Shown in pieces: positions 2,217-15,348 of a stretch of DNA of 15,348 nucleotides (positions are counted from its first letter, which is position 1; each line of letters starts with the position of its first letter). The position numbers and the translations under genes are program-made. Source of the DNA: Clostridia bacterium. Lineage in GTDB: Bacteria; UBA6262; WVXT01; JAUXBS01. Where the stretch lies: the NCBI GenBank assembly GCA_030618495.1, contig JAUXDE010000032.1, positions 1 to 15,348 on the forward strand. The letters are read 5' to 3'. The notes under the pieces are model-generated. The model saw nothing but the letters and a program-made list of their open reading frames with translations, was not told where the DNA came from and did no database searches.

Positions 2217-2319
2217 CTTATCTATTATGACTAATTCATTGTCCGCCTTATCCTGCTATTCTCACTCTTCGTTCCTTGACGCTGAAACAAAATACTTCCA
2301 GCATATGTAAAGATATGTT

Positions 2320-2334
2320 AGTGACACTACACTA
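2320..2334 (+). repeat. Copy A of recurring 15-base motif (AGTGACACTACACTA)
   Basis: This copy matches the consensus AGTAACACTACACTA at 14 of 15 bases. It lies 42 bases before the -35 of the mraZ promoter. With T2319 it forms a perfect short dyad TAGTG-A-CACTA (2319-2329), and it overlaps a second palindrome ACACTAGTGT (2329-2338). The position suggests an upstream operator or activator site. No gene is seen between the rnpB terminator and mraZ. Confidence 0.5.
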
Positions 2335-2376
2335 GTGTTATCTTTTATTATTTATTAATATTTTTTCATTATTTTC

Positions 2377-13654: not shown

Positions 13655-13683
13655 TTGACAAACACCAAATTAAATAATAGAAT
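13655..13683 (+). promoter_or_regulatory. Promoter of tRNA-Lys
   Basis: TTGACA (13655-13660), a 17-base spacer and TAGAAT (13678-13683) make a strong sigma70-type promoter with a predicted start near 13690, about 26 bases before tRNA-Lys. No terminator is seen after murG, so readthrough from the dcw cluster may also supply this tRNA. Confidence 0.7.
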
Positions 13684-13715: not shown

Positions 13716-13788
13716 GGGACCGTAGCTCAGCCGGTAGAGCATCTGCCTTTTAAGCAGAGGGTCGAGCGTTCGAGCCGCTCCGGTCTCA
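13716..13788 (+). tRNA. tRNA-Lys(TTT)
   Basis: The cloverleaf has acceptor GGGACCG/CGGTCTC (one G-T pair), D stem GCTC/GAGC, anticodon stem TCTGC/GCAGA with loop CTTTTAA (anticodon TTT at 13749-13751), T stem GAGCG/CGCTC with loop TTCGAGC, discriminator A13788 and no encoded CCA. It has its own promoter and lies between murG and the GGDEF/sugar-binding fusion gene. Confidence 0.96.
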
Positions 13789-13834
13789 TAAAACAATTGA
13801 CAGCCATTTATTTATGTAATGTTTATTGCTGCAT

Positions 13835-13850
13835 TAAATAAATTTATTTA
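13835..13850. promoter_or_regulatory. 16-base perfect palindrome upstream of the GGDEF/sugar-binding gene
   Basis: TAAATAAATTTATTTA is fully self-complementary and lies 14 bases before the start codon, just ahead of the Shine-Dalgarno GGGAGGTG (13853-13860). Its right half, ATTTATTTA (13842-13850), also occurs at 13806-13814 as a direct repeat. Together they look like a possible operator. The sequence is purely A/T, so composition could produce it by chance. Confidence 0.35.
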
Positions 13851-13864
13851 GTGGGAGGTGGAAA

Positions 13865-15271
13865 ATGAAAAGTGTATCTGTGAAGAAGTCAGTAGAAACA
13901 GTGCATAGGGTTGACAGTGCAATCGGGGTTTATGACAAGGAGTCCTTTAATGACTTGCTTGTAAAGGAAATTCTTCGCGCAAGCAGGGGTAATATATCCG
14001 TAGGTACTGCGATGATAAGCATAGATGATTATCCCAGGTTAGTGAGGTTGTGTGGTAAGTCGGGGATGAATTCTATACTGTGTTCAATAGTAAAAATAAT
14101 AAAAAAGAATATACGCTCATATTTCCCCATCGGGATGCTGAACAAAAATGAATTGGCAATAATATTTCCTGACACTATTAGAAGGGTGTCCATTGCCATA
14201 ATGAAATCAGTTAGACAGAAAGTATCCCATGCTGTTTTTTATGACAAAAACAAAAAAAGGGTAAAAGTCACATTGTCCATTGGCATAGCAAATTATCCTG
14301 AAAATGCTTTAAATAAATCTAAACTCATGGAAAGGACCAGGAAGACCCTGGGATTGGCTAAACAGGAAAACGGAAACCGTGTTCTTTCATATGTGACAAC
14401 TTCTCATGCATCCACCAGGCTTGCGGTTATTCCTCCAGGCATTACAACTCCGTTTTATTCTTATGTCATTCTTGGCATGAGAGAGATTATTGAAGATGCC
14501 GGGAACATAGAATTAATGCTCTTCGGAGGGGAAGAAGATCTGAATTTTAAAGCTCATGAAGAGGGTATCAGGCAGGCGTTGGCAAGCAAACCTGACGTTA
14601 TGGCTTTATGCAGTAAAATAAATTCCGGTCCGTACGTAAAGAAGGCAAACAAGATGAAAATACCTGTATTTGGTTTTAACCTGCTGAACCTTAAAATGTC
14701 ACCAAAAGGCAAAATACAGTCGTATGTGGGTTATGACCAGAAGGAAGCAGGCAGGAAGGTTGGCAGGTATCTTGTCCGTTTATTAAGAGAAAAGGGGAGT
14801 ATTGCAATAATTGAAGGTGTTGTTAATGATAGCGATTCCATAGACAGAAAAAAGGGGTTCATGGAGATAGTGAAAAAACACCCTGAAATAAAAGTTGTTA
14901 AATCAGCATCAGCTAACTGGATGAGGAATCAATCTACAAAAGTCACAAAGGATATCCTTAATAAACATCGTAATATTGATGCTATATTTGCAGTAAACGA
15001 TGAAATGGCTATCGGCTCCGGAATAGCTGTCAAGAATATAGGAAAAACCGGAAAAATATTTATTGTAGGCCTGGACGGAAGCAGGAACGGTCTCCAGGGT
15101 GTAAAAGACGGCCTTATAACAGCTACCATGAATGCCAATCCAATTGAAATGGGCAAGGTTCTGGTGAAAACCATTCTTCGCAGTATGGTCAAAGAAGAGA
15201 AGGTTCCGCCAAAAGTTGAATCCCCCATTATGATGGTTGACATGGTGAATGTAGATTCATATTTAAGATAA
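13865..15271 (+). CDS. Degenerate GGDEF domain fused to a type 1 periplasmic-binding-like sugar-binding domain
   Basis: This 468-residue protein has two clear parts. Residues about 20-176 follow the GGDEF fold: VYDKESFNDLL, ISIDDY (51-56) in the place of the DIDxFK metal site, then TLSIGIANYP (136-145) and LAKQENGNRVLSY (164-176). The signature itself reads NKNEL (93-97) instead of GGDEF, so diguanylate cyclase activity is unlikely. Residues about 183-468 resemble ribose-binding/LacI-type proteins: RLAVIPPGITTPFY, NDEMAIGSGIAVKNIG (378-393), GLDGSRNGLQGVKDGLITAT (402-421) and NPIEMG (425-430). No signal peptide, lipobox or membrane helix is seen, so it is probably a cytoplasmic sensor of a small molecule, perhaps a sugar (inference). 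Start ATG 13865 has GGGAGGTG 4 bases upstream. The gene looks more AT-rich than the dcw genes. The partner and signal are unknown. Confidence 0.85.
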   Translation: MKSVSVKKSVETVHRVDSAIGVYDKESFNDLLVKEILRASRGNISVGTAMISIDDYPRLVRLCGKSGMNSILCSIVKIIKKNIRSYFPIGMLNKNELAIIFPDTIRRVSIAIMKSVRQKVSHAVFYDKNKKRVKVTLSIGIANYPENALNKSKLMERTRKTLGLAKQENGNRVLSYVTTSHASTRLAVIPPGITTPFYSYVILGMREIIEDAGNIELMLFGGEEDLNFKAHEEGIRQALASKPDVMALCSKINSGPYVKKANKMKIPVFGFNLLNLKMSPKGKIQSYVGYDQKEAGRKVGRYLVRLLREKGSIAIIEGVVNDSDSIDRKKGFMEIVKKHPEIKVVKSASANWMRNQSTKVTKDILNKHRNIDAIFAVNDEMAIGSGIAVKNIGKTGKIFIVGLDGSRNGLQGVKDGLITATMNANPIEMGKVLVKTILRSMVKEEKVPPKVESPIMMVDMVNVDSYLR

Positions 15272-15300
15272 AATATCAATATACAAGCTCAACAAAGAAT

Positions 15301-15348
15301 GTCCCCATGGAGTAGTGGTTAGCTCACCACCCTTTCAAGGTGGTAGCA
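15301..15348 (+). tRNA. tRNA-Glu(TTC), 3' part cut off by window end
   Basis: The 5' part of a cloverleaf is visible: acceptor strand GTCCCCA, D stem GAGT/GCTC, anticodon stem CCACC/GGTGG with loop CTTTCAA (anticodon TTC at 15334-15336). The T arm and 3' acceptor strand lie beyond the window. It starts 29 bases after the stop of the GGDEF/sugar-binding gene, with no promoter or terminator visible between, so it may share that transcript. Confidence 0.88.

Follow-up and report, generated by a model that had tools for sequence, protein, structure and literature searches.

Introduction

PBP-clan domains occur together with GGDEF, EAL and HD-GYP domains and are described as periplasmic in the part of a review drawn on here (PMC8846402). 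According to the same text, SBP_bac_3 (RmcA) alone has been studied among the PBP-clan families of c-di-GMP networks, and Periplas_BP is a putative sensory domain that may bind sugars and has no experimentally validated role. The sugar case that it gives for c-di-GMP signalling is that of EIIA-Glc and PdeS, and FimX is cited for GTP stimulation or sensing through a degenerate GGDEF motif (PMC8846402). Such a putative sensory domain is shared by the protein described below, a soluble fusion of a GGDEF domain to a C-terminal sugar-binding protein (SBP) domain; a cytosolic C-terminal PBP domain or a multi-copy family was not found in this portion of the review (PMC8846402).

Other known systems resemble the fusion in part. 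The diguanylate cyclases PleD, DosC and DgcR have the same fold as its residues 15-176, and intact sister proteins of the fusion carry all signature residues, whereas in the copy studied here the metal, A-site and I-site residues are missing and the likely sensor is C-terminal to the GGDEF domain. A pseudo-enzyme GGDEF domain is common to FimX-type proteins and the fusion, but FimX has an EAL domain, which Pfam did not detect here, the partner being instead an RbsB-type domain. Ribose- and allose-binding proteins (RbsB/AlsB, Peripla_BP_4) share the fold and part of the cleft of the C-terminal domain; in contrast to them, the fusion is predicted to be cytosolic, lacks a signal peptide, places this domain behind GGDEF and has partly changed ribose-contact positions. 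LacI-family repressors and BT1754-type hybrid sensors (2x7x) likewise use an RbsB-like domain as a sensor, not as part of a transporter, whereas the output domain of the fusion is GGDEF instead of an HTH or histidine kinase and there is no membrane span.

Results

The fusion gene lies in a window of 15,348 nucleotides, the whole stretch of DNA analysed, from a genome of 1.69 Mb and 98% completeness (G000) that belongs to a sparsely sampled bacterial lineage; G001 is a congener. The gene and its nearby elements are as follows.

13655-13683, near-consensus promoter TTGACA-17-TAGAAT, 5' of tRNA-Lys (from the sequence)
13716-13788, + strand, tRNA-Lys, immediately 5' of the fusion gene and on the same strand
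13849-13864, + strand, ribosome-binding site region, GGGAGGT, 5' of the ATG (from the sequence)
13865-15271, + strand, whole gene, fusion of a pseudo-GGDEF domain to an RbsB-type sugar-binding domain, 468 aa

The ORF starts with ATG behind a strong ribosome-binding site, GGGAGGTGGAAAATG. The open frame extends just 9 codons 5' of this ATG (stop-to-stop length 477 aa), ruling out a hidden upstream membrane anchor or signal peptide. Neither a signal peptide nor a membrane helix was found in the sequence or hydropathy profile of the 468-aa fusion; the peak 19-residue hydropathy, 1.25, falls within the SBP core, and no stretch attains the level of a membrane helix. Given the short upstream frame and this hydropathy, the protein is predicted to be cytosolic, as the initial annotation had also read it.

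The tRNA neighbours reported initially are both present. The tRNA-Lys lies 5', and 3' of the gene begins a tRNA-Glu that is truncated by the contig end and was identified through identity with the complete tRNA-Glu of contig C27. The result is a protein gene flanked by two tRNA genes, all on one strand. Because the promoter-like site precedes tRNA-Lys and the sequence from there to the fusion gene showed no terminator-like site, co-transcription with the tRNAs (window 13716-15348) is possible. A dcw cell-wall cluster, named from ORF translations, precedes the window copy, and the ortholog in G001 has different neighbours.

The proposed order, GGDEF-like and then sugar-binding-like, was borne out by the domain search, with both matches well above their curated cut-offs: Pfam GGDEF (PF00990) at residues 16-172 (E 1.1e-15, 58.2 bits vs cut-off 23.8) and Peripla_BP_4 (PF13407) at residues 187-439 (E 2.3e-50, 172 bits vs cut-off 35.1). 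The features of the protein, all on the + strand, are listed below.

13907-14392, + strand, degenerate GGDEF domain, residues 15-176 (Pfam, AlphaFold2, Foldseek)
14018-14026, + strand, S52-I53-D54, the metal-binding D-I-D of intact paralogues with the first Asp lost (family alignment)
14114-14125, + strand, R84-S-Y-F87, replacing the RxxD inhibitory site, RSYD in intact paralogues (family alignment)
14141-14155, + strand, N93-K-N-E-L97, replacing GG(D/E)EF (family alignment)
14393-14410, + strand, very short linker, residues 177-182, between the final strand of GGDEF and the initial strand of the SBP domain (family alignment)
14411-15268, + strand, RbsB-type sugar-binding domain, residues 183-468 (PF13407, Foldseek)

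Modelled alone with AlphaFold2, the N-terminal domain gave a pLDDT of 86 and a pTM of 0.81. Its top Foldseek matches were all GGDEF domains, including DosC, PleD, DgcR and FimX, with a TM of ~0.8 on the query against known diguanylate cyclases over residues 15-176; the GGDEF fold on which the initial annotation depended is thus present in the structure prediction. By sequence, no solved GGDEF domain is closer than the FimX one (3hva, 3.7e-08), which is itself degenerate.

Catalytic, metal, A-site and I-site roles were assigned to GGDEF residues by reference to PleD. In the family alignment, where intact paralogues have DIDxFK..YND.......GD, RSYD....YGG(D/E)E(F/I) and AKEEGRNR, the window protein has SIDDYP..VR.......MN, RSYF....LNKNEL and AKQENGNR. 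The NKNEL signature is located at residues 93-97, as originally noted, and the metal Asp, the Asn and Asp that follow it, the A-site motif and the I-site Asp are gone from the protein; in the last motif, Lys K166 is kept and the A-site Arg has become G170. Since the metal Asp, GG(D/E)EF, A-site Arg and I-site Asp are missing, the domain is expected to be dead as a diguanylate cyclase, neither making nor binding c-di-GMP in the usual ways, and the loss of catalytic residues in the alignment agrees with the first description of it as inactive.

In comparison with the 70%-identical ortholog of the sister species, the GGDEF domain had a dN/dS of 0.175 and the SBP domain one of 0.139, approximate values with synonymous sites near saturation; the intact pair C49/C223 gave 0.088 (GGDEF) and 0.070 (SBP). 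The dead GGDEF domain is maintained by purifying selection, somewhat relaxed, and the closeness of 0.175 to 0.139 indicates that it is not a decaying remnant.

For the C-terminal part, which has a predicted type I periplasmic-binding fold, the closest NCBIfam models are allose- and ribose-binding proteins, and the first Foldseek match of the whole-protein model is the ribose-binding protein 2ioy (TM 0.87 on target). Cleft positions were read from the alignment to 2ioy and transferred to E. coli RbsB numbering, in which the ribose contacts are N13, F15, F16, D89, R90, R141, F164, N190 and D215. RbsB N13, F15 and F16 correspond to T195, F197 and Y198, F164 to W352, N190 to N378 and D215 to D404, with W352 and D404 invariant in the family; F197, Y198, W352, N378 and D404 thus align with these sugar-contact positions. 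RbsB R141 corresponds to I326 and D89 to N272, also invariant in the family, the equivalent of Asp89-Arg90 being N272 plus a family-specific loop. Read this way, the putative sugar cleft is partly conserved and partly altered, so that the ligand is most likely a sugar, or a derivative of one, other than ribose; with two ribose-contact sites changed (I326; N272 and the loop), the ligand may not be a simple sugar.

The linker shows no insertions or deletions throughout the family, and residues 178-181 form a low-confidence stretch in the AlphaFold2 model of the whole protein (mean pLDDT 83, pTM 0.58; six sequences, taken from the window and its sister species). At this pTM, the model leaves it uncertain how the two domains are placed relative to each other.

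Both G000 and G001 hold at least five pieces of the GGDEF-SBP family apiece. With GGDEF followed by Peripla_BP_4, a short linker and full-length homology, the window protein is a genuine member of an apparently lineage-specific family of cytosolic fusions. In G000, the paralogue on C143 is 54% identical to it and broken by the contig end, that on C49 is 37% identical with a longer N-terminus, the copy on C27 is an 88%-identical fragment, C30 carries the N-terminal part of a member only, and a 76-aa fragment on C35 looks like a small remnant. G001 has five copies, including the 70%-identical ortholog. At least seven genes across the two genomes have the same order with the fixed linker, which rules out a lone chance fusion or an assembly chimera.

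Three paralogues (G000:C49, G001:C223 and G001:C120) have an intact active site and I-site, retaining DID..N..D, GG(D/E)E(F/I), K..R and RxxD, with GGEEI in C120; the I-site Asp is F in all three members of the window subclade. The SBP-domain tree has four groups: window/C163/C143 (degenerate), C49/C223 (intact), C120/C270 and C250 (degenerate). The window/C163/C143 group is also supported by the GGDEF tree, in which C250 has a long branch of unsure position; independent loss of the active site is no more than suggested. Only in G001:C223 does the N-terminal extension score as a GAF domain, and the isolated extension barely reaches the Pfam cut-off.

All five Peripla_BP_4 matches in each of G000 and G001 belong to this family (the weakest in G000 being a fragment below cut-off), no free RbsB-type protein was found outside it in either genome, and four genomes of a sister family in the same order had no Peripla_BP_4 match. 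Eight PilZ matches in G000, candidate c-di-GMP receptors, make c-di-GMP signalling likely there; C123 carries the one stand-alone, full-length GGDEF domain found in this genome. Separately, ORFs of 320-672 aa on G000 C9, C65 and C163 have partial PF00990 matches that run from the start of the profile to between about half and two thirds of its length, with similar ones in each of the six genomes of the phylum; these ORFs may form another divergent GGDEF-related family.

The architecture was searched for in 60 relatives, six genomes of the phylum, two small phyla and ~1,180 genomes of three large phyla, and in all these samples full-length matches were confined to the genus. There were none in the other four genomes of the phylum, in the two small phyla or in the large-phylum genomes, where at most the best four candidates per genome were taken at strict E-values. 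A degenerate-pattern scan of one genome per species (84,980 species), narrow enough to reach close relatives only, gave no match outside the genus. With few candidates scored per genome and so narrow a pattern, these results are an indication that the fusion is restricted to the genus. A characterised cytosolic GGDEF-SBP protein was not found in the open-licence papers searched; a common, characterised architecture would have contradicted the initial annotation, and no characterised example came to light.

The initial annotation had held that genomic context gives no pathway, which is right for the window copy, located between tRNA genes and outside any sugar operon, and wrong for the family, for which paralogues in sugar operons and three intact GGDEF motifs point to a likely pathway. 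The G001:C250 copy, whose active site is lost as well, belongs to a gal operon (beta-galactosidase, galT, galE, fusion, galK) with gaps of ~20-40 bp around it. The fusion gene on G001:C223 and a ROK-family sugar kinase gene overlap at the end of the latter, an order also found in G000:C30. Downstream of G000:C49 come a GH2 enzyme, whose Ig domain is of the exo-beta-D-glucosaminidase type, and then nagB. These three contexts favour sugar as the ligand class. In the gal-operon beta-galactosidase (L049:573-4292), a Laminin_G_3 domain is inserted within the GH2 chain.

Two contig pairs of the genome overlap end to end at 89-91% identity (window 14846-15348 with L043:1-505; L042:1-772 with L045:1-763), the overlapping pairs being C86/C27 and C49/C30, which suggests recent duplicates or a two-strain mixture in the bin. 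If joined, C30 and C49 would give the order ROK kinase, fusion, exo-glucosaminidase, nagB; in the sister genome, the same gene was not seen downstream of the fusion within ~300 bp of sequence. An 80-base element at window 2257-2336, ~90 bases 5' of an mraZ-like ORF, appears to be a dispersed repeat, being 92-96% identical to C49 32-108, C49 5481-5560 and C30 669-732; two of these three other copies lie directly 5' of GGDEF-SBP family genes.

Discussion

We consider it probable, with moderate confidence, that the window protein is a cytosolic sugar receptor whose pseudo-GGDEF domain, as a module for dimerisation or partner binding, is linked to active sister cyclases. Most likely, the RbsB-type domain would bind a sugar or derivative in the cytosol and close like a Venus flytrap, and the change would be relayed through the very short, fixed linker to the GGDEF domain. 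As a pseudo-enzyme that keeps its fold and is under selection, the latter would most likely act in dimerisation or partner binding; it could pair with active GGDEF-SBP sisters or another c-di-GMP protein, and such pairing could tune c-di-GMP output according to sugar level. What we infer here is that the ligand is a sugar, the identity of that sugar, the pairing of the window protein with its sisters and any influence on c-di-GMP.

A possible, if doubtful, alternative is a sugar receptor with an output other than c-di-GMP, the pseudo-GGDEF domain acting as an adaptor for a transcription factor or enzyme in place of missing LacI-type regulators. The joint loss of catalytic site and I-site, with the Asp-to-F change throughout the subclade, and the lost active site of the gal-operon copy would fit such an adaptor. 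So would the absence of LacI HTH proteins: the PF00356 profile found none in G000 or G001, with a positive control in 10 of 14 genomes, and Pfam found none in the window protein itself. Several paralogues nevertheless have complete cyclase and I-site motifs, making c-di-GMP the most likely ancestral output.

We think it distinctly unlikely that the degenerate domain is a FimX-like nucleotide sensor (for GTP, ppGpp or c-di-GMP) with the SBP domain as a second input. FimX is the closest solved relative by sequence, its GTP stimulation through a degenerate motif is described in the review text used here (PMC8846402), and K166 is kept; against this, substitutions have removed the metal Asp, the Asn and Asp following it, the GG(D/E)EF residues, the A-site Arg and the I-site Asp. 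The initial suggestion that the dead domain binds a nucleotide is accordingly weakened by the loss of most GTP/metal residues and the I-site Asp, despite K166 and the FimX precedent.

That the gene is a decaying, functionless copy is very improbable: the family is multi-copy and includes the apparent remnant on C35, but this gene has a full ORF, a good ribosome-binding site and a 70%-identity ortholog in a second species, and dN/dS of 0.14-0.18 across both domains with that conserved ortholog led us to reject a pseudogene. Least credible of all is that the gene encodes the usual periplasmic sugar-binding component of an ABC importer, extended by chance at its N-terminus. The standard RbsB-type domain would fit this, but the signal peptide is absent, no ABC importer gene was seen among the ORFs of the window, and the conserved fusion already refutes it.

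The favoured reading, a sugar receptor tied to active sister cyclases, touches on a wider question, as direct sugar sensing by c-di-GMP enzymes is poorly documented. That sister copies keep the active site, and that some stand in sugar-utilisation operons, suggests an undescribed family of cytosolic sugar-to-c-di-GMP signalling proteins. More speculatively, and in our judgement unlikely, a periplasmic-type SBP moved into the cytosol may be the cell's principal sensor of sugars and be coupled to c-di-GMP by the GGDEF-SBP family, with pseudo-enzymes regulating active members by heterodimerisation and the family replacing LacI-type repressors in gal and glucosamine operons. With soluble GGDEF-SBP proteins in intact and dead versions, one of them in a gal operon, the question of whether sugar acts on c-di-GMP becomes testable with purified proteins.
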